From Flavobacterium buctense (GTDB lineage Bacteria > Bacteroidota > Bacteroidia > Flavobacteriales > Flavobacteriaceae), in assembly GCF_014486695.1 (NCBI RefSeq), contig NZ_JACTAB010000002.1, forward strand, positions 62,001-126,000: a stretch of DNA of 64,000 nt, given 5' to 3'. The notes under the pieces were generated by a model, which saw nothing but the letters and a program-made list of their open reading frames with translations, was not told the DNA's origin and made no database searches. The position numbers and the translations under genes were made by a program. The stretch's first letter is position 1; the number at the start of each line of letters is the position of its first letter. Of the stretch, positions 1 through 7,971 are shown one piece after another.

Positions 1-442
1 CACTTTGAATGGCTGCAATTTGGGCTTCGAGCGAAGTTACTTTTCCGCCATAAGATATTCCGGCTTGTTCTTTGGCTTTGAGTTGGCTTTGAGTATTTTT
101 AACCAAATTAGGGTCAAGGTAATCTTCTTTGGTTTCCGAAATAAAAAGAATAGTATCCCCTTTTTGCACAAAATCACCTTCTTTGACGTACCATTTTTCA
201 ATTCTTCCCGCGATAGCAGAATGAATGGTTTGTGGTCTTTGGTCTGGTTTTAAAGTGGTTACGGCTCCGGTTCCGGAGATGTTTTGTGTCCAAGGTAAAA
301 ACAAGATTAGCAAACCCAATAGTGAAACGCCTATTATGATTTTGTTTAAAATTTTATAGTACGGTCGATTGCTAAGCGTTTTAAACGTACTGTAATTTTC
401 CAAGCTTTCGCCAATTCGGTTGTTGTTTGAAATGTTAAGCAT
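1..442 (-). CDS. HlyD-family membrane fusion protein, N-terminal part (runs off the window)
   Basis: Reading the minus strand from the ATG at 442-440 gives an open frame to the window edge (147 codons). The product has a cytosolic N-terminus, one membrane segment near residues 33-50 (IIIGVSLLGLLILFLPW), then a lipoyl/biotinyl-like half motif (GRIEKWYVKEGDFVQKGDTI) and the start of a coiled-coil hairpin (SQLKAKEQ, SLEAQIAAIQ). That is the standard order of HlyD/EmrA-type periplasmic adaptors, which link an inner-membrane exporter to an outer-membrane channel. It starts two bases after the stop of the ABC exporter gene, so the two are very likely one transport system. An outer-membrane TolC partner may lie beyond the edge. 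The C-terminal part is not visible, so the subfamily is unresolved. Confidence 0.9.
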   Translation of the reverse strand, partial: MLNISNNNRIGESLENYSTFKTLSNRPYYKILNKIIIGVSLLGLLILFLPWTQNISGTGAVTTLKPDQRPQTIHSAIAGRIEKWYVKEGDFVQKGDTILFISETKEDYLDPNLVKNTQSQLKAKEQAGISYGGKVTSLEAQIAAIQS

Positions 443-444
443 CG

Positions 445-2112
445 TTATTGTTTTTTAGTGTCTCTAATGATTTTTCCATCGCTCATCGTAATTTTTCTTG
501 AGCATTTTTCTTTCCAATAATCGTTTTTAGAAGAAACGATTAGCGTCCATTTGTTGTCATTAGAAGTAATGAAGTCTATTACTTCTTTTGCGGCATCATT
601 GTCCATTTTGTCTAAAGCATCTTCGTAGAATAAAATTTTTGGTCGGTTGATAATACTCCGAGCCAAAAGTACTTTCTGTGCATTGGACGATGACAATTGT
701 TTGCCCTCAGGATAAATTTTGGTATCTAAACCTTTGGGTAATGACTTGATAAAATCACCCAAGTTTACACTTTCGATGGCCCATTTCAAATCTTCTTGAG
801 AAATCAATGGATTGTTAAAAGTGATGTTCTCCAAAATTGTACCTTCAAAAGGTGTTTCGCCAATAATAATGGTGCTGATTTGTGAGCGGTATTGTTCCAA
901 ATCAATTTTTCGATAAGTATCATCATTGATGTAAAACGAACCCGAAGTGGGTTGCAACAATCCGGAAAGAATTCGAATTAGCGTTGTTTTGCCCGAACCA
1001 TTTAACCCTTCCAAATATATTTTTTCAGATTGTTCGATGGTCAGATTGATTTTTTCCAACACAAAATCAGCAGCGTCAGGAAATTTATAACTTAAGTTTT
1101 CAGCGGCCAAATGGATATTGGTGTAGCAATAATCGGCCTCTTTTGGATTCGTTTCTTCTACTTCTAAGTCGGTTATTTGTCCTATTTTTTCCACAGCGGT
1201 TAATACGTCATAAAGGGTTTCCAACCCAATTACGATTTTTTCCACCGAATTTATAACCAATAAAATGATAATTTCTGCTGCTACGAATTGACCAATATTC
1301 ATCTTTTGGTTCAAAACCAAATAGCCACCAATCAATAATAATCCGGCGGTAATTATGATTTTGAAGACAATCAATTGGGTAAATTGTCTTTTGATAATTC
1401 CAAAATGTTTTTCGCGATATGTTAAGTACTCTGAAACCAAACGGTCATTTTTAGTTAAAGCAAAATCGAAGTTGGATGTTTTTTTAAAACTGAAATTGTT
1501 TCTGGCAATTTCTTGCAACCAACTCACCACTTTATACTTGTATTTAGACTCTTTCATGCTGCTGGATAATCCGGAATTATACGAAAAGCGGAAAATAACA
1601 TAAAGTAAAATAACGAGAAAAAAACCAAAGAAAATAAAGAACGGATGGTATAGCGACAGCAAGAGGATTCCGAAAATAATTTGTAATAAGGCTGACGAAA
1701 AGTCAATCAGTAGTTTAGAAGCGCCTTTTTGAATGGTCAAAGTGTCAAAAAAACGGTTGGCCAATTCGGGAGGATATTGGTTGTGCAGGACATCGGTCTT
1801 AATTTTTGGCAATCGGAAACCAAATTCAAACGAGGAACGGATGAATATTTTTTGTTGTAAATTTTCTGTTATTCGCAATTGCATTAGGGACAAGATTCCT
1901 ACTAAAGCCACGCCCGCAATAACGATAAATACTAAAACTATCCAGGAAATGCTAACTCTTCCGGATTGAATCAGATTGATAATCGCCTGTATGCCCAAGG
2001 GAAGCGACAAACTTACCAATCCTGCGAATATGGCATAAAAAAACACTTGTGAAATGTCCTTTCGGTCGAGTTTCAGGAGGTTGAATAATCTTTGAGAAGC
2101 TGATAGTGCCAT
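445..2112 (-). CDS. ABC exporter, fused membrane and ATPase domains, with degenerate ATPase motifs
   Basis: The 555-residue protein has an N-terminal exporter transmembrane domain (hydrophobic segments around residues 20-300) and a nucleotide-binding domain (about 330-555). Walker A is intact (GLNGSGKTT). The other motifs deviate: the Q-loop region reads TIIIGETPFEGT without the expected Gln, the signature is LSSSNAQ instead of LSGGQ, Walker B is ILFYEDALDKMD with Glu/Asp swapped against the usual DE, and the switch histidine is missing (LIVSSKND). There is no N-terminal C39 peptidase domain. It lies between a TetR gene and a HlyD adaptor in one tight operon, so it is probably the inner-membrane part of a type I-like export system with unusual ATPase chemistry. 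The substrate is unknown. Confidence 0.88.
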   Translation of the reverse strand: MALSASQRLFNLLKLDRKDISQVFFYAIFAGLVSLSLPLGIQAIINLIQSGRVSISWIVLVFIVIAGVALVGILSLMQLRITENLQQKIFIRSSFEFGFRLPKIKTDVLHNQYPPELANRFFDTLTIQKGASKLLIDFSSALLQIIFGILLLSLYHPFFIFFGFFLVILLYVIFRFSYNSGLSSSMKESKYKYKVVSWLQEIARNNFSFKKTSNFDFALTKNDRLVSEYLTYREKHFGIIKRQFTQLIVFKIIITAGLLLIGGYLVLNQKMNIGQFVAAEIIILLVINSVEKIVIGLETLYDVLTAVEKIGQITDLEVEETNPKEADYCYTNIHLAAENLSYKFPDAADFVLEKINLTIEQSEKIYLEGLNGSGKTTLIRILSGLLQPTSGSFYINDDTYRKIDLEQYRSQISTIIIGETPFEGTILENITFNNPLISQEDLKWAIESVNLGDFIKSLPKGLDTKIYPEGKQLSSSNAQKVLLARSIINRPKILFYEDALDKMDNDAAKEVIDFITSNDNKWTLIVSSKNDYWKEKCSRKITMSDGKIIRDTKKQ

Positions 2113-2114
2113 AA

Positions 2115-2789
2115 TTATTTGCTTAAAGTTTTTTGGGCCAAATCAATGTAAAATTGGGTTGGCGAATTGTTTTCATTGCAATCGGTAATAGTTTTCAAAT
2201 GATCTTTTAAAAAATGTTGGTGTAAGGAGCCTTCAACAATTGATGACGCTAGGCTTTTTGCATAACTGTAATCGGGATTTACTTCTTGAATGATGTCGAT
2301 GATTCGGTTAATCACTCTTTTGTAGACCAAAAAGAAGCCTTCTTTGTTTTCTTCATCTACCTCTTTGGTTAGCAGTGTTTTGGTAAATTCAGCGATGATA
2401 ATTTTATTTAAAACAGCTTCGTTGATATGAAGTGTAGATGAATCGTCTTGTATTTTTTCGGTGACTATGGTAATTGCTCTTTTGAGTTTGTCCATCGGGT
2501 CTACAATATTGGTGGTATAAATAGCCAAACGGCATTCCATCCAACCCCAATACCAAGAGCACAAATAAACCAATAGTTTATGCTTACTTTCAAAATAGCG
2601 GTAGATTGAACTTTCATTAGACCCAATTCTTTCGCCAAGTTTTTTAAAGGTGAAAACTTCAAAACCTATTTCTTCAATCAAGATAATACTCTCTTGAATA
2701 ATTTTTTTTCCAAGCGTTGAAGTCTCCGGATCTTTAACGTAGATTTTTTCGTTTACTTGAATTTTTAATGTTAAGAATAAATTGTTCAT
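2115..2789 (-). CDS. TetR/AcrR-family transcriptional regulator
   Basis: The 224-residue protein has a TetR-type helix-turn-helix near residues 45-70 (FTFKKLGERIGSNESSIYRYF), containing the family's Y-x-Y/H-F ending, followed by a helical ligand-binding domain without recognisable specificity. About 20 residues precede the usual TetR N-terminus; the first ATG is kept because no later start fits better. The gene is inside the operon, 3 bp after the DUF2490 gene and 2 bp before the ABC exporter. A perfect 17-bp palindrome on the -7 promoter element of this operon, and of the neighbouring one, is a good candidate for its binding site. The usual role would be repression relieved by a ligand; this is inferred. 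Confidence 0.85.
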   Translation of the reverse strand: MNNLFLTLKIQVNEKIYVKDPETSTLGKKIIQESIILIEEIGFEVFTFKKLGERIGSNESSIYRYFESKHKLLVYLCSWYWGWMECRLAIYTTNIVDPMDKLKRAITIVTEKIQDDSSTLHINEAVLNKIIIAEFTKTLLTKEVDEENKEGFFLVYKRVINRIIDIIQEVNPDYSYAKSLASSIVEGSLHQHFLKDHLKTITDCNENNSPTQFYIDLAQKTLSK

Positions 2790-2792
2790 TTT

Positions 2793-3506
2793 TTAGTCAT
2801 TTGTTGTTGGATGAAAGTCAACATTCTCTTTTTTCTTTTTTAAATCGAAGTTGTAAAGTAATGCGATGTTAAAAAAATCACGTCCAGTCTCATCATTAAT
2901 TTTGTAATCAAACTGGTGAATGTATCCGGTTTGAACTGCTATGTTTTCTGAAAACTCATATCCACCTCCAATGAAGAGTCTGTTTCTTTCGAAAAAGGGT
3001 TCGTTATCTGTAAAAAAAATTTCATTCCAAACAGATAAATAAAATGTTTTTGGGGTTATTTTTTTTCCTTGCAACGGAATAACAGCTGATAATCTGTATC
3101 TAAAACGATTCCGATAACCATTTGAAGTAAAGCGCTGCTCAGCTCTATAACGATGTTCAAATGTAATATAATCAAATGGGTTTTTTAAATTAGCCTGAAC
3201 CCAAGTTCTAATTTCATCGTTTTGCATAGGGGATACGAAATTTCCGCCTTCAGTGTAGGTATTATAATCTCCAAATCCTGTTGTTACAGAAAAGTTCGGT
3301 TTAATTTTATAGGTCAAGCCCGTTTTAATTTCATAATAATGAAAATCATCATAAAAGGATAAACTTCTTATTTGTCCTTCCGTGAAAACACTCCATTTAG
3401 AATTTACTTTCATGGTTACACTCAAAATATTCCATGAACCAAGGTCGTTTTGAGCCATTGTTTTACTTCCAAAAATCAGCAATAATGCAAGTTTGATTTT
3501 TTTCAT
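2793..3506 (-). CDS. DUF2490 protein, predicted outer-membrane beta-barrel
   Basis: The 237-residue product starts with a signal peptide (KLALLLIFGSKTMAQ). It is rich in alternating amphipathic strands with aromatic ends, with motifs typical of DUF2490: W-x-x-hydrophobic near the start, EHRYRAEQRF, NRFRYRL and an N-R-x-F-x-G-G-G-Y strand. The family has no assigned biochemical function; an outer-membrane beta-barrel is the best structural guess. The gene overlaps the terC-like stop by one base and is followed 3 bp later by the TetR gene. A second DUF2490 gene at 5012-5797 is under the same putative operator, so the two may be partners or alternatives. Confidence 0.8.
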   Translation of the reverse strand: MKKIKLALLLIFGSKTMAQNDLGSWNILSVTMKVNSKWSVFTEGQIRSLSFYDDFHYYEIKTGLTYKIKPNFSVTTGFGDYNTYTEGGNFVSPMQNDEIRTWVQANLKNPFDYITFEHRYRAEQRFTSNGYRNRFRYRLSAVIPLQGKKITPKTFYLSVWNEIFFTDNEPFFERNRLFIGGGYEFSENIAVQTGYIHQFDYKINDETGRDFFNIALLYNFDLKKKKENVDFHPTTND

Positions 3507-4216
3507 TATCCGTTTTTAGTTGTTGTATTTACTTTGACGGTTTTCATTTGGATAACATCTACTAAAAAGGCAAATGCCATAGAAAAATAAATATATCCTT
3601 TTGGAATTTCAAAATGGAAACCTTCGGCAAGCAAAGAAACGCCAATCATTAGTAAGAAGCATAATGCTAATATTTTGAATGAAGGGTGTTTCGAAATAAA
3701 TTCGCTTATGGGTTTTGAAGCAACAAGCATTATTATTACAGTAACAATCACTGCTGCATACATTACCCATAATTCATTCACCATTCCAACTGCTGTGATA
3801 ATGGAGTCGATAGAGAAAACTAAATCTAAAATGATTACTTCACCAAGTAATTTTCTGAAACTGCCTTTTTTAGGGAGTGCTGACTCATGTGAATTCGCAA
3901 TTTCGGTCTTATGATAGATTTCTTTAGTGCTCTTGTAAATTAAAAATAATCCTCCAATAATTAATATTAATCCTTTTCCTGTAAAGTCAACATCAGCAAA
4001 CGTAAACAAGGTTTTGTCTAGTTTTAAAATCCAAGAAATCAGGGCTAATAAGCTTAATCTCATGATCATTGCCAGTCCAATTCCCCAGTATCTTAGTTTG
4101 TTTCTTTGGTTTTCGGGTAGTTTATCAGCTAATATGGATATAAAAATGATATTGTCTATTCCGAGGATTACTTCCAGTGCAATTAAGGACAATAAAGGGA
4201 TTAATGCTTCTGTCAT
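3506..4216 (-). CDS. TerC-family integral membrane protein
   Basis: The 236-residue protein has about seven hydrophobic segments and the two TerC signature motifs: EVILGIDNIIF (acidic residue near 21) and ILDLVFSIDSIITAVGM (Asp near 131 and 137). TerC-family proteins (Alx, YkoY, YceF) are linked to manganese export, metalation of secreted enzymes and tellurite resistance. It starts one base after the stop of the LRR gene and overlaps the DUF2490 start, so translation is probably coupled. The context with an exporter and envelope proteins suggests a role at the cell envelope, possibly metal supply during export; this is inference. The family is certain, the substrate is not. Confidence 0.9.
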   Translation of the reverse strand: MTEALIPLLSLIALEVILGIDNIIFISILADKLPENQRNKLRYWGIGLAMIMRLSLLALISWILKLDKTLFTFADVDFTGKGLILIIGGLFLIYKSTKEIYHKTEIANSHESALPKKGSFRKLLGEVIILDLVFSIDSIITAVGMVNELWVMYAAVIVTVIIMLVASKPISEFISKHPSFKILALCFLLMIGVSLLAEGFHFEIPKGYIYFSMAFAFLVDVIQMKTVKVNTTTKNG

Positions 4217-4217
4217 T

Positions 4218-4865
4218 TTATTTTAAATTAATTTTAAATCCGAAATTTACGTTGTTTAGTTCCGGAATGTTAGGGTTAATGTTATTGTCTTTTAAATCTA
4301 AATATTGTAAATATTCTAAAGACATGACCTGTTTGGGTAATTCTATAAATTTGTTATTATTTAAGTATAATAATTCTAAATTTTTTAGCTTTTCTATTTT
4401 GTTGGGCAGTGCCTTTAAATTATTATTCTCAAGGTGTAATTCTCTTAAACTGGTCATACTAGAAATGATGTCCATGTTTTGCTTTAAGTCAAACTCTTTT
4501 TCATCGTTTAGATATAAAACTTCTAATTTTGACAACCCTTTTAATGTATTGGGTAATGTTTTGAAATTGTTACCACTTAAATCCAATATTTTTAATTTGG
4601 TCAATTTGGCAATCCCTTCCGGAATTGAAGTTAAGTGATCATTCTTTAAACTAAGGTATTCCAAGTTGATGAATACTTCCCAATTAATATCTTTTAAAAG
4701 TACAGTTTGATTGCTTAAATCAAGACTAATTACTTTTTCAGTATTTTGTAAAGCTTCAGTTAAGTTAGAAAACTTATTTGAATTGGGTACATTTTCAATT
4801 TGAGCGAAAAGGATAGCATTGCAGAACAAAAGACTTAGTGCTGTTATAAGGATATGTTTCATCAT
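4218..4865 (-). CDS. Secreted leucine-rich-repeat protein
   Basis: The 215-residue protein has a signal peptide (ILITALSLLFCNAILFA, cleavage near QIEN) followed by six or so leucine-rich repeats of about 23 residues. Units such as LKILDLSGNNFKTLPNTLKG and LELLYLNNNKFIELPKQ fit the LxxLxLxxNxLxxLP pattern. No enzyme domain or sorting tail is visible, so it probably works by binding a protein partner in the periplasm or outside. It is the first gene of the six-gene operon. Its start lies about 20 bases after the predicted transcription start at the palindrome-bearing promoter. An alternative start one codon downstream (MKHILIT) would give the same mature protein. Confidence 0.82.
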   Translation of the reverse strand: MMKHILITALSLLFCNAILFAQIENVPNSNKFSNLTEALQNTEKVISLDLSNQTVLLKDINWEVFINLEYLSLKNDHLTSIPEGIAKLTKLKILDLSGNNFKTLPNTLKGLSKLEVLYLNDEKEFDLKQNMDIISSMTSLRELHLENNNLKALPNKIEKLKNLELLYLNNNKFIELPKQVMSLEYLQYLDLKDNNINPNIPELNNVNFGFKINLK

Positions 4866-4889
4866 AGTTAGATTTAAACTTTAGATTGC

Positions 4890-4912
4890 AAAGATAATAG
4901 TAATACTATTAA
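4890..4912 (-). promoter_or_regulatory. Promoter -7 box with overlapping 17-bp palindromic operator (copy 1)
   Basis: On the minus strand TATCTTTG (4897-4890) matches the Bacteroidota -7 consensus TAnnTTTG. The perfect palindrome TAATAGTATTACTATTA covers 4896-4912, sharing its last two bases with the box. A further conserved stretch, TAAAAGTTAAA, lies upstream at 4932-4922. The same arrangement recurs at 6575-6597. A repressor bound here would block RNA polymerase; the TetR protein encoded in the operon is the obvious candidate. No clear TTTG -33 element was seen. Confidence 0.75.
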
Positions 4913-5011
4913 AAATGAAATTTTAACTTTTATTTTAATATTGTTTCCAAACTGCTTAAAGTAAAATTTTGATCAGATTGTTTTTTTTGAATTTAGTAGC
5001 TACGGCTAATA

Positions 5012-5797
5012 TTAATGGGTTAATTGGTTTTTTTTTGACAAATCAAAATTAAAGTGGGTATTGATGATAAAACCGTTGTTATTTTGAAATACATTTCTAT
5101 TGTCTACTTCTCTACCCAATTGTAGTGTTTGGTTAAAATATCCGGCTTCAACTCTAATTGTATTGCTGAATTTATAACCAAAAAGAATTCCAAATCGGTT
5201 TTGATCAAATACATTTTCATTTACATTTTCACCAAAACCAAGCATAATTTCATCATAAATTGCCAGATATGGAGTTTTGTTTTCTATGGATTGTCCTTTT
5301 AGAGGAATTTGCATTCTAAACATATATCGAAAACGATGTGATAATGGAAACTCATCTTCTTTTGATAAACCAGAATTAGAATATCTACCAACCCATCTTT
5401 GTTCCAACATAAATCGATGTGAAAAGTCAACAATTGACACTTTATCGTTTAAAGTTACCATTTGAAATGCTCTATGTTCTGTAAATTCTTTTCCAAAACC
5501 ATTGATTGAAATCTCACCATATGGATAGGTTTCTATCCAGGCATAACCCAGTCTTAATTGGACTTTCGGGCTTAATTGATAATTTATACCTAAACGCAAT
5601 AAACCTTGTTGTTTATCGGTAATATAGTTATCTCTTCGCAACTGATATTCTGTATGGATGCTGTATCTTTTATCCAATTTTAAAGTTCCGAAATAATTGT
5701 ACCAACCAATATTGTTGTAATTATTTATCCTAGTGTTTTGACCTATTAATGAGTAATTAATAAAGCCAAATGCAATAAACAGATAGGTGTATTTCAT
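5012..5797 (-). CDS. DUF2490 protein, second copy
   Basis: The 261-residue protein has a signal peptide (YLFIAFGFINYSLIG) and the same DUF2490 features as the gene at 2793-3506: a WYNYFG start, repeated amphipathic strands, LEQRW, HRFRYMFRMQIPL and a closing barrel strand ending NFDLSKK. Function is unknown; an outer-membrane beta-barrel is likely. It follows the NTF2-like lipoprotein gene by 44 bases, with a hairpin terminator or attenuator between them, so it may be made at a lower level than the lipoprotein. Both appear to be read from the palindrome-bearing promoter at 6575-6597. Confidence 0.8.
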   Translation of the reverse strand: MKYTYLFIAFGFINYSLIGQNTRINNYNNIGWYNYFGTLKLDKRYSIHTEYQLRRDNYITDKQQGLLRLGINYQLSPKVQLRLGYAWIETYPYGEISINGFGKEFTEHRAFQMVTLNDKVSIVDFSHRFMLEQRWVGRYSNSGLSKEDEFPLSHRFRYMFRMQIPLKGQSIENKTPYLAIYDEIMLGFGENVNENVFDQNRFGILFGYKFSNTIRVEAGYFNQTLQLGREVDNRNVFQNNNGFIINTHFNFDLSKKNQLTH

Positions 5798-5802
5798 AAA
5801 AA

Positions 5803-5832
5803 AAAATTATGGGTTGACTTTTAAATCAACCC
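5803..5832 (-). terminator. Rho-independent terminator or attenuator between two co-directional genes
   Basis: On the minus strand a GGGTTGA/TCAACCC stem (5832-5826 with 5817-5811) is followed by an A/T stretch and eight T. It lies after the lipoprotein gene and just before the downstream DUF2490 start, so it can reduce read-through instead of ending the unit. Confidence 0.65.
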
Positions 5833-5841
5833 AAGTTTATA

Positions 5842-6507
5842 TTATTTAGTTGGGGAGTATGGTAGTGACGATTTATGAACAATTATTCGAAGTTTTCCAT
5901 CTTTTCCCTTTTTGAAAACCCATGTTTTATCGACCATTATTTCTTTACCCGTTTTATCAGTAACCCAAACATTTCCCATCGTAATCGCTATCGATCCATA
6001 AATTTGTATGCCTTCATTTTTTTCGCCTGTATTATCATAGCGCGCTTTTACCCATGGTGTAAGTGCAAATCCTTTGTCGTTTGGATAATTTGGATCGCCA
6101 CCAATAAAATAAGCCAAGGCTCCATTTTTATCATTTCTAAAAGTTTGATCGCCATAAGCTAAAGTAGGTTTGAAAAAAACTTTTCCATGGTCATAGTTAT
6201 AGGCGTCTGAAAGCACTTGTTCAGCGAAAGTTTTATAATCGCCACCTTCTTCTTTTAATTGGCCAATTTTCACTAAAGCATCACACCAGGCTTGTTGAGC
6301 GGCGTTTACTTCGTCGTAGGTAATAATTGTTTGTGCACCTTCTTCAACATAAACTAATCCAAGTTCATCAATTACTTTTTGAACTTCCTGATTGGTTTGA
6401 GAGACTATTTTGTTGGTCTCTTCTTCAATTTTTTGAGAAGCTTGATTACATGAAGTTAATAAAGTTGTTGTTACAACTAAACCTAAAATTAATTTTTTTG
6501 CAGTCAT
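5842..6507 (-). CDS. Lipoprotein with an NTF2/SnoaL-like domain
   Basis: The 221-residue protein has a lipoprotein signal (LVVTTTLLTSCNQ, lipobox LTSC, lipidated Cys20), a short helical linker of charged residues, and then a domain of about 150 residues. The pattern of that domain is aDDEV-AQQAWCDALVKIG, YNYDHGKVFFKPTL, GDPNYPNDKGFALTPW and WVFKKGKDGKLRIIVHKSSLPY, resembling SnoaL/NTF2-like proteins. Proteins of this type are sometimes labelled phosphoribosyl-AMP cyclohydrolase; nothing here supports that enzyme. It is the first gene after the second palindromic operator and precedes a DUF2490 gene. The lack of an acidic or Lys-rich tail after the Cys suggests periplasmic, not surface, anchoring. 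Confidence 0.7.
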   Translation of the reverse strand: MTAKKLILGLVVTTTLLTSCNQASQKIEEETNKIVSQTNQEVQKVIDELGLVYVEEGAQTIITYDEVNAAQQAWCDALVKIGQLKEEGGDYKTFAEQVLSDAYNYDHGKVFFKPTLAYGDQTFRNDKNGALAYFIGGDPNYPNDKGFALTPWVKARYDNTGEKNEGIQIYGSIAITMGNVWVTDKTGKEIMVDKTWVFKKGKDGKLRIIVHKSSLPYSPTK

Positions 6508-6574
6508 AGTGATTTTTTTAATTGCCTACTTTTTTTACAGTGTTCAGCTTGTCTGTTTTTAATAATGATATATG

Positions 6575-6597
6575 CAAAGATAATAGTAATACTATTA
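6575..6597 (-). promoter_or_regulatory. Promoter -7 box with overlapping 17-bp palindromic operator (copy 2)
   Basis: The minus strand carries TATCTTTG (6582-6575) overlapped by the palindrome TAATAGTATTACTATTA (6581-6597), identical to the copy at 4890-4912. TAAAAGTTAAA follows upstream (6618-6608), one base further away than in copy 1. It drives the lipoprotein/DUF2490 pair with a leader of about 60 bases. Confidence 0.75.
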
Positions 6598-6702
6598 AAA
6601 TAGAAACTTTAACTTTTAATTATAATTATTTACCATTTTCCTCATGAGAAATGTCATATTTTTATAAGGCATTCCGAATTAATTTTGACCAAAATTTTAG
6701 AT

Positions 6703-7971
6703 ATGAGCAAATATGTTACGGCTGCAGAAGCAGTGAAAGTTGTAAAATCAAACGATAGGGTTTATGTCCAAGCGGCTGCAGCGACCCCCACCATTTTAAC
6801 CAAAGCACTGGCCGACAGAGCTACAGAACTTCGCAATGTTGAGGTTTGTCATTTGCATACCGAAGGTCCGGCACCTTATGCTAATATTGAATTAGCGGAT
6901 AGTTTTCATGTGAATTCTTTTTTCATCGGAGCTAATGTTCGACATACGTTAACTGCTGGAAATGGTTCATACACCCCCGTTTTTTTAAGCGAATTGCCAC
7001 ACCTGTTTCGCAAAAAAGTATTAGTAATTGATGTTGCATTTATTCATGTTTCGCCACCGGATAAGCACGGATATTGTTCGCTCGGTGTTTCGGTTGAAGC
7101 AACGGTAGCGGCTATCGAAAATGCTAAAATTGTTATTGCCCAAGTCAATCCGCAAATGCCAAGAACTTTTGGGGATGGGATTCTTCATATTTCTGAAATA
7201 GATTATTTAGTAGAAGTAAACGAATCTATTTTTGGCCATGCACCAACGCCTTTTTCCAAAGAAGAAGAAAAAATAGGCGAGTATGTGGCTTCTTTAATTG
7301 AAAACCGAAGTACTTTGCAAATGGGCATAGGTTCAATACCTAACGCAGCTTTAAGTAAATTAAAAAATCACAAAGATTTAGGTTTACACACCGAAATGTT
7401 CTCTGATGGCGTAATTGATTTGATAGAAAGCGATGTCATCAATTGCAATTATAAAGGCACCTTGCGCGGCAGAGTGCTTGCCACTTTCTTAATTGGTTCC
7501 AAACGATTGTATGACTTTGTTAACGACAATCCTTTTATAGAAATGAAAGAATCTTCCATGGTGAACGATACGGCTCGTATTCGTAAAAACCCAAAAATGG
7601 TAGCTATCAATTCTGCTATAGAAGTGGATGTTACCGGACAAGTATGTGCCGATTCTATTGGAGCCAAAATGTATTCCGGTGTTGGAGGTCAAATGGATTT
7701 TATTCGTGGCGCTTCCTTAAGCGAAGGCGGAAAAGCAATTATTGCTTTGCCATCCATAACAAAAAGAGGCGAAAGCAGAATTGTGCCTTATTTGAAACAA
7801 GGTGCCGGAGTAGTTTCAACCCGTTCCCACGTGCAATATATCATCACTGAAAACGGCATAGCCGATTTATATGGCAAAACCTTAAAACAACGCCTGAATG
7901 AAATGGTCAAAATTACACACCCAACCCATCAGGAAAGTATTGAAAGAAGTTATTATGAAATGTTGAAATAA
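6703..7971 (+). CDS. Acetyl-CoA hydrolase/transferase family protein
   Basis: The 422-residue protein belongs to the acetyl-CoA hydrolase/4-hydroxybutyrate CoA-transferase family (two-domain class I CoA-transferase fold). The motif LHTEMFSDGVIDL holds the catalytic glutamate (about E231), which forms the glutamyl-CoA thioester. Conserved patches include SPPDKHGYCSLG, GIGSIPNAAL, GVGGQMDFIRGA and GVVSTRSHVQYI in the C-terminal domain. It transfers or hydrolyses CoA between short acyl groups in the cytosol; the exact acid is not predictable. The ATG at 6703 (MSKYVTAAEA) fits the family start; an in-frame TTG lies 18 bases upstream. It is monocistronic and ends at a bidirectional terminator shared with gpmI. 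Confidence 0.9.
   Translation: MSKYVTAAEAVKVVKSNDRVYVQAAAATPTILTKALADRATELRNVEVCHLHTEGPAPYANIELADSFHVNSFFIGANVRHTLTAGNGSYTPVFLSELPHLFRKKVLVIDVAFIHVSPPDKHGYCSLGVSVEATVAAIENAKIVIAQVNPQMPRTFGDGILHISEIDYLVEVNESIFGHAPTPFSKEEEKIGEYVASLIENRSTLQMGIGSIPNAALSKLKNHKDLGLHTEMFSDGVIDLIESDVINCNYKGTLRGRVLATFLIGSKRLYDFVNDNPFIEMKESSMVNDTARIRKNPKMVAINSAIEVDVTGQVCADSIGAKMYSGVGGQMDFIRGASLSEGGKAIIALPSITKRGESRIVPYLKQGAGVVSTRSHVQYIITENGIADLYGKTLKQRLNEMVKITHPTHQESIERSYYEMLK

Follow-up and report, generated by a model that had tools for sequence, protein, structure and literature searches.

Which genes answer to two identical palindromes placed on two neighbouring promoters, and to which protein do these palindromes belong? 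The question is raised by a 64,000-nucleotide stretch of the Flavobacterium buctense genome (contig NZ_JACTAB010000002.1, positions 62,001 to 126,000; hereafter the window), where the same 17 bases precede two units read from the minus strand, one with genes of a leucine-rich-repeat (LRR) protein, a TerC protein, a DUF2490 barrel, a TetR-family regulator (tetR) and an exporter, and one with genes of a putative carbonic anhydrase (CA) and of another DUF2490 barrel. An earlier note on this DNA assumed that the TetR protein binds both sites. As described below, there is strong in silico support for the palindromes being operators of the TetR protein encoded at 2115–2789, and it seems probable from the conservation of sequences and neighbourhoods that this protein belongs to a Bacteroidota subfamily tied to inorganic carbon (Ci), which would control an exporter and, in the window, an envelope CA module as well. 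Genomes are denoted by G numbers and loci by L numbers throughout.

The palindromes and the tetR gene

The primary observation was confirmed. Both palindromes are present, each overlaps a minus-strand −7 box by two bases, and the common upstream element TAAAAGTTAAA was found at equal distance from the palindrome at both promoters (4922–4932 and 6608–6618). Only the first palindrome had been placed one base off (at 4896–4912 instead of 4895–4911), the second occupying 6581–6597 as previously indicated. The sequence TAnnTTTG is the −7 consensus of Bacteroidota. Both palindromes are perfect (8+1+8) and represent two of just four such elements in the 64-kb window. With up to three mismatches TAATAGTATTACTATTA was registered four times in the window (the two sites, on both strands) versus a mean of 0.31 and a maximum of 2 in 100 dinucleotide shuffles of it, and exact copies in the 2.92-Mb genome are limited to these two. 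The nearest further copy in this genome, with one mismatch (C47:30898), was rejected as occurring by chance, since it falls within an open reading frame of L003 and no −7 box adjoins it.

A search for tetR (E 1e-15 or better) in 199 genomes of the genus and 299 genomes of the family revealed the gene in 113 and 190 of them, respectively, and by identity the genus set was split into 109 genomes with an orthologue (57% or more) and four with a paralogue only. The strict motif, composed of the palindrome core and TTTG, was present in 88 of the 109 genomes having the orthologue versus one of the 90 genomes without it (G490), and the reversed pattern, used as a control, gave 0 matches in all 199. 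Scattering over many unrelated promoters, considered in the earlier note, was not found: out of 95 strict matches, spread over 89 genomes, 92 are on the contig of tetR and all of these are upstream of the gene, 65 at a distance of 17–47 bp and 27 at 0.65–5.1 kb, with extra genes between the site and tetR in those distant cases that were read. The remaining three belong to G453 and G319, which have tetR on other contigs, and to G490, where the motif (L164:8340–8361) directly precedes a DAHP-synthase-like gene, so named from a reading of its sequence, and was discarded as a chance match.

Ten of the 21 tetR-containing genomes without the strict motif were read. All nine of them covered by long loci (G327, G349, G407, G422, G426, G439, G452, G460 and G492) have a site with 1–3 mismatches, and in G348 no site was found in the 1.5 kb before tetR, which is the sole stretch covered (L062). 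A loose pattern, NNAWAGTNNTACTATTA with one mismatch, was also applied to these 21 genomes, but its control matched equally often or more often in nearly all of them and it was left unused. To the question whether the site may be absent where tetR is kept, 60 tetR-centred loci of the family gave a clear answer. They were chosen by their match to tetR and not by neighbours, 40 from the genus and 20 from other genera, these 20 being largely among the first entries of the match list. The palindrome with at most three mismatches was found within 2.5 kb before tetR in 60 of 60 loci, in 57 of them on a −7 box, versus 9 and 0, respectively, of 179 control stretches of equal length from the same loci. 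Wherever a gene for an LRR, TerC or DUF2490 protein is inserted ahead of tetR, the operator precedes the first inserted gene, as autoregulation by TetR predicts. The second site, before a CA-DUF2490 unit, recurs where this unit is linked to tetR, with iota-CA in L076, L077, L245 and L247 and with beta-CA in L080. The composition of the predicted regulon is therewith variable, genes for LRR, TerC, DUF2490 and CA being additions to a conserved tetR-ABC-HlyD-TolC set, whose tetR-ABC-HlyD core was registered in 58 of the 60 family loci (all but L115 and L117) and in 14 of 21 phylum-level tetR neighbourhoods. In L245 (Flavobacterium macrobrachii) a −7 box accompanies the CA operator (7906–7922) on either strand, and the divergent gene, which resembles an acyl-CoA hydrolase/transferase, might thus be subject to the same control.

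All eleven paralogous matches of tetR in the genus (39–50% identity) were read. Ten of the eleven loci contain the palindrome with at most three mismatches versus 1 of 31 controls, usually with altered outer bases (TGATAGTAATACTATCA type), and just one of these sites is on a −7 box. Hardly any variation was found in the helix-turn-helix stretch when the window protein was compared with those of Chryseobacterium and uncultured Bacteroidia. The site and the recognition region are thus conserved jointly and drift at the level of the phylum. One can read the conservation of a transcription factor and its presumable operator over a bacterial family, and with a named protein, a 17-base site and a short list of targets the question is reduced to a gel shift and a deletion.

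Upstream of the palindrome, designated O1, a second element (O2) can be proposed. Its profile was built from 93 promoters aligned on O1 and kept if they had a −7 box and at most three mismatches; the source listing, used for the O1/O2 profile alone, gave spurious distant matches where the 1.5-kb flank stopped short of the promoter (L008, L051, L052) and no match in L050, L059 and L062. In 63 promoters whose TetR is closest to that of the window, similarity to the palindrome peaks 21 bp upstream (9.60 out of 17 versus 6.63 in shuffles), and in the other 30 the peak is 22 bp upstream (9.47 versus 7.03). At a distance of 31 bp ahead of the −7 box the sequence GTTAA was found in 28 of 42 operator promoters, and for other TAnnTTTG boxes this number was 2 of 490, as counted in a pool of the window and 40 related, not independent loci. 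As only 2 of the 490 boxes have it at that distance, GTTAA was rejected as a general promoter element. From these data we infer that O2 is a degenerate second operator two helical turns upstream of O1; alternatively, it may be an element recognized by the polymerase or by an activator.

Autorepressing pairs of a TetR-type regulator and an exporter, such as those of TetR, QacR and AcrR, are well known. The window resembles them in that a regulator with the TetR fold is encoded together with an exporter, and the −7 box of the regulator's promoter is overlapped by a palindrome. It differs in the second unit, with a CA homologue and a porin-like barrel, that appears to be under the same regulator, and in the possible tandem of O1 and O2, 21–22 bp apart.

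Genes of the two units: carbonic anhydrase homologue and DUF2490 barrels

Features of both units are collected in the table. The order LRR-TerC-DUF2490-TetR-ABC, read in the earlier note from the letters, was supported by Pfam and NCBIfam, and the unit runs on through the remainder of the HlyD gene into a TolC-type gene beyond the edge of the window. Thus, all parts of a type I secretion system (ABC protein, HlyD-type adaptor, TolC-type factor) are in one unit, and every NCBIfam type I model listed for the exporter scored below its cut-off. The model of the TetR protein (pLDDT 86.5, pTM 0.84) has an all-helical TetR fold. Foldseek gave for it a best E of 4.1e-4, the top two rows being titled superantigen PfiT, a TetR-like protein, and the remaining rows were mostly TetR-type regulators (DarR, FadR, AibR, AmtR, SlmA).

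Table. Positions of predicted sites and genes (window coordinates unless a locus is given)
Feature	Position	Strand	Basis
Putative operator O1, LRR-TerC-DUF2490-tetR-ABC-HlyD-TolC unit	4895..4911	-	TAATAGTATTACTATTA, 0 mismatches
Putative operator O1, carbonic anhydrase unit	6581..6597	-	identical 17 bases TAATAGTATTACTATTA, 0 mismatches
-7 box TATCTTTG, LRR-TerC-DUF2490-tetR unit	4889..4896	-	TAnnTTTG, Bacteroidota type; 2 bases common with O1
-7 box TATCTTTG, carbonic anhydrase unit	6575..6582	-	2 bases common with O1
O2 (proposed degenerate second copy), LRR-TerC-DUF2490-tetR unit	4916..4932	-	21 bp upstream of O1; starts with TAAAAGTTAAA
O2 (proposed), carbonic anhydrase unit	6602..6618	-	TAAAAGTTAAA at 6608-6618
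Iota-carbonic anhydrase homologue, 221 aa	5842..6507	-	NF047901, PDB 7c5v/7c5x; lipoprotein signal LTSC by eye
DUF2490 outer-membrane barrel, CA-linked type (DUF2490b)	5012..5797	-	PF10677 160.4 bits, cut-off 29.8
Leucine-rich-repeat (LRR) protein	4218..4865	-	PF13855 and relatives; signal peptide by eye
TerC-family membrane protein	3506..4216	-	PF03741 164 bits; best NCBIfam YkoY subfamily 90 bits, under cut-off
Second DUF2490 barrel (DUF2490a)	2793..3506	-	PF10677 156.2 bits, cut-off 29.8
TetR-family regulator, proposed to bind O1/O2	2115..2789	-	PF00440 33.5 bits, cut-off 24
ABC exporter, type I-like permease/ATPase	445..2112	-	Pfam, NCBIfam; no peptidase domain in Pfam result
HlyD-type adaptor	1..442	-	remainder beyond window, L007:6096-7442
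TolC-type outer-membrane factor	L007:4711-6096		after HlyD, beyond window edge

The protein encoded at 5842–6507 was called just a lipoprotein in the earlier note, which gave the order of this unit correctly and missed the nature of its first product; the identity found here shifts what the regulon is about. No Pfam match was obtained for this protein. NCBIfam model NF047901 (metal-independent carbonic anhydrase) matched it with 182.2 bits (E 7.7e-54), and solved iota-CAs were matched in PDB entries 7c5v (E 2e-43, residues 61–218) and 7c5x (E 2e-61). For the Anabaena enzyme Thr106, Tyr124, Ser199 and His197 are proposed to be catalytic in PMC8425729, and the protein of the window keeps all four as T115, Y133, S213 and H211. 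Thus, judging from the matches to solved structures and from the retained residues, it is an iota-CA homologue with a conserved active site, the activity itself being presumed. A closer assignment is opposed by two points. The 350-bit equivalog cut-off of NF047901 was not reached, and the protein is therefore called a homologue and not that equivalog; the (H)HHSS motif was also not found, HKSS being present instead. Lysine replaces the second histidine in all five aligned Bacteroidota copies (HKSS in four and HKSA in L173). So the window protein is similar to iota-CAs of Anabaena (7c5v) and Bigelowiella (7c5x) in its 158-residue domain with catalytic T, Y, H and S, and differs from them as a lipoprotein (by eye) with HK for HH, missing the NF047901 cut-off and having a putative TetR-type operator.

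Genes of iota-CA are scarce in the genus (7 of 199 genomes), and DUF2490b follows in all seven cases. Among 80 loci of named species or metagenome-assembled genomes (MAGs) found with iota-CA, DUF2490b is within 4 kb on the same strand in 30. In the opposite direction, 30 genus loci found with DUF2490b have a CA gene beside it in 20 cases (7 iota, 13 beta), and the statement that its partner is nearly always a CA was thus rejected as too strong. Such CA-DUF2490 modules repeatedly include genes of a Fic-domain protein and of a small protein with an MscS beta-domain (L173:9817–11135, L246:9592–10886).

Five models of DUF2490b were obtained with confidence from 58.9 to 87.2 pLDDT. The best one (87.2) is nearest to NanC (Z 15.1, 182 residues, 3.2 A) and KdgM (Z 14.1), identity in these rows being 7–10%. 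When checked against the 12-strand KdgM/NanC fold, DSSP assigned 11 strands of three or more residues, with about 9% identity to NanC, and Foldseek by itself found no similar structure up to E 0.001. NanC and KdgM are porins that pass acidic sugars. About a dozen arginines are invariant in the family, which, along with the likeness to NanC and KdgM, would suit an anion pore. The barrel of the window thus aligns with both porins in its best predicted form, and is unlike them in belonging to the DUF2490 sequence family, in its many invariant arginines and in its position beside CA genes. Probably, DUF2490 accompanies exported carbonic anhydrases as their partner in the outer membrane, whereby an uncharacterised barrel gains a plausible role. 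No match linking DUF2490 to carbonic anhydrase was found in the open-licence literature searched.

Inorganic-carbon genes around tetR and its paralogues

As in the window, a CA unit with the operator in front adjoins the tetR unit in G346, G338, Flavobacterium macrobrachii and Flavobacterium dankookense. In two other genomes the enzyme is a beta-CA: in G438 the operator precedes its gene (Pro_CA 137 bits, signal peptide by eye), which is followed by DUF2490, and in G446 it precedes a DUF2490 gene followed by beta-CA (Pro_CA 143 bits, lipoprotein by eye). An unrelated class of enzymes for the CO2 reaction is thereby under the same predicted operator. The gene under the operator in G362 was also taken for beta-CA, but a recheck revealed only the front part of beta-CA fused to DUF2490, with no CA domain; as this domain is lost, G362 is not counted.

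At the paralogues of tetR in the genus Ci genes adjoin in 10 of the 11 cases (SulP-CA, SbtA, bestrophin-CA or CA alone), SbtA being at three of these loci, 1.8–3.2 kb from the regulator; the eleventh locus (L298) has an exporter instead. The relatives' SulP proteins are only partly similar to BicA (132 bits versus a cut-off of 880). Near two paralogues (L299:7892–9479 and L183:6067–7660) a bestrophin-type gene stands by beta-CA, divergently from the regulator, and in L183 its frame seems interrupted.

Further examples came from more distant organisms. In a Bacteroidia MAG (L253:2–10259) tetR is preceded by genes of SulP, beta-CA, DabA (677 bits) and a protein similar to DabB, and between tetR and the genes of iota-CA and two DUF2490 proteins there is an exact palindrome. 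As genes of TerC and of an exporter are also close by, this region looks like a compact inorganic-carbon island. Two Chryseobacterium species (L254, L258) have tetR-ABC-HlyD-TolC divergent from iota-CA-LRR, with the palindrome in L258. Two short beta-CA-like pieces precede iota-CA in L258 (Chryseobacterium takakiae, 7562–7769) and are possibly a remnant of a replaced beta-CA. In G507 the tetR-exporter unit is divergent from beta-CA (144 bits)-LRR-DUF2490. By locus, divergence of a CA gene from tetR-exporter was registered in L254, L258 and L344. Since L253, L254 and L258, as well as L222, L284 and L290, came from the iota-CA search, they illustrate the association and cannot measure its frequency.

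A count independent of that choice was made with tetR (alignment A2) in 198 genomes of the phylum, where 37 matches were found in 31 genomes, and with Pro_CA, which has 51 matches there. For six of the 37 tetR genes beta-CA is no more than 5 kb away, the expected number being 0.14 (Poisson P 1e-8), and in the 60 family loci a Ci gene is within 6 kb of tetR in 11 (2 iota-CA, 2 beta-CA, 6 SbtA, 1 DabA), both counts (6/37 and 11/60) being uncorrected for shared ancestry, which is the first of several points that weaken the proposed link to inorganic carbon. At 49 of the 60 loci of the family and at 16 of the 21 phylum-level ones there is no known Ci gene within 6 kb. Outside the family the palindrome with at most three mismatches was registered in 10 of 20 phylum-level loci versus 3 of 56 controls, and no site passed the filter in L254. 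The CA site of G422 is degraded (3 mismatches, box lost), the sole site found in G426 is before the LRR gene, with beta-CA (136 bits)-DUF2490 ahead of the unit, and in G362 the fusion mentioned above (L178:8165–8917) has the front of an exported-type beta-CA in frame with the DUF2490 barrel. The iota-CA units that are unlinked to tetR in the tetR-containing genomes G305 and G479 have no operator, and in F. buctense itself SbtA and beta-CA are together at C47:120799–122270, where no palindrome was listed. Units without the operator suggest that the regulon spreads by neighbourhood and holds only a part of the Ci genes of the cell.

The window may accordingly be compared with Ci uptake clusters, which combine SulP/BicA, SbtA or DabAB with CA. 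Relatives of its TetR sit within such clusters, as in L253, and the window unit is unlike them in having no SulP, SbtA or Dab gene beside it, SbtA of the same genome being elsewhere. In 6 of the 60 family loci (L098, L101, L107, L110, L112, L123) the 14 kb that hold the tetR-exporter unit also include SbtA and a LysR gene.

Possible mechanism and alternative explanations

Proceeding from sequence conservation, location, co-occurrence, gene content and fold models, the following scheme can be proposed. Bound at O1, a TetR dimer would hide the −7 box from RNA polymerase and thus repress two units, its own (LRR-TerC-DUF2490-tetR-ABC-HlyD-TolC) and the adjacent one of the iota-CA lipoprotein and DUF2490. 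The weaker O2, two helical turns upstream, probably aids binding. Binding of a ligand to TetR would derepress both units jointly. The CA lipoprotein may then hydrate CO2 at the envelope, the arginine-rich barrel may serve the anion (bicarbonate), TerC perhaps supplies metal to exported proteins, and the exporter would be switched on together with this CO2-hydrating system. On several occasions, it seems, an envelope CA module came to stand beside the conserved tetR-exporter core and under a copy of the operator.

A wider generalization, which we put forward as tentative and somewhat doubtful, is that the subfamily operates as a Bacteroidota-wide Ci switch, sensing CO2/bicarbonate or a metabolite that reports it and acting via the ATAGTAWTACTAT operator on two CA classes, the DUF2490 bicarbonate-type porin, SulP, SbtA, DabAB or bestrophin and the ABC exporter. 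If true, it would mean regulated capture of CO2 at the envelope of bacteria not living by CO2 fixation, in which, to our knowledge, little is known about regulation of CO2/bicarbonate supply; we also know of no described regulator of iota-CAs. In the open-licence literature searched there was no TetR regulator of Ci uptake genes in Bacteroidota, no TetR-controlled CA regulon in Bacteroidota among titles and beginnings of abstracts, and no match for Flavobacterium johnsoniae with carbonic anhydrase and the TetR family or for the −7 consensus. In passages of PMC13144422 the only occurrence of "tetr" is in "tetramer".

The regulator may instead be devoted to the exporter, i.e. TetR senses a compound exported by ABC-HlyD-TolC, and CA, DUF2490, TerC and LRR are envelope passengers without any link to Ci. 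The conserved core tetR-ABC-HlyD and the prevalence of loci without Ci genes, quantified above, agree with this explanation, and since most tetR loci have no Ci gene nearby, the actual signal may be the exporter substrate, CA genes having joined later as passengers. Nevertheless, we consider it unlikely, because paralogues without an exporter adjoin Ci genes at 10 of the 11 genus loci, two unrelated CA classes are under the predicted operator, and proximity to beta-CA exceeds the expected value. The tree of 111 TetR proteins, built from mixed sampling and with long-branch warnings, also bears on this choice. Its leaves were labelled as exporter-only (68), Ci-only (18), both (20) or neither (5), the label of L178 among "both" being wrong to the extent that no more than a remnant of beta-CA is present there. 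For the Ci-only label 5 changes suffice versus a shuffled mean of 17.0, so that it is clustered. For the label combining exporter and Ci 15 changes are required, at least 11 of them on well-supported branches, so such neighbourhoods seem to have been gained or lost many times, but this number is near the shuffled mean of 18.7.

Still less probable is a regulon responding to metal shortage in the envelope or to alkaline pH, where TerC loads metal into exported enzymes, CA being among them. In Bacillus subtilis exported enzymes receive their metal from TerC proteins, according to PMC10550928, and TerC is present in the window unit, in 9 of the 60 family loci and beside iota-CA-DUF2490 in G305. 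However, there is no TerC near tetR in 51 of the 60, the paralogue loci hold Ci transporters and not metal ones, and the metal requirement of iota-CAs is itself disputed, as stated in PMC8425729. Finally, it is very improbable that a different regulator recognizes the palindrome, or that it serves as a structural part of the promoter, its connection to tetR being one of synteny only: a LysR gene is near several loci, but the motif follows tetR across the family despite changing gene order, occurs in only 1 of the 90 genus genomes lacking the orthologue, has variants accompanying tetR paralogues at other loci, and LysR is not constant among them.

Two more arrangements of the same genes were registered. 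In a Chitinophagaceae MAG (L281:2244–7446) iota-CA is between the HlyD and TolC genes of an exporter of the window type, with TerC-DUF2490-beta-CA-SulP on the opposite strand. In G320, which has no tetR match, iota-CA-DUF2490 (L175:6794–12145) is between a threonylcarbamoyl-AMP synthase-like gene and SbtA/SulP. Threonylcarbamoyl-AMP synthase uses bicarbonate, and a gene of this type is also by SbtA in L182 (TIGR00057) and L297.

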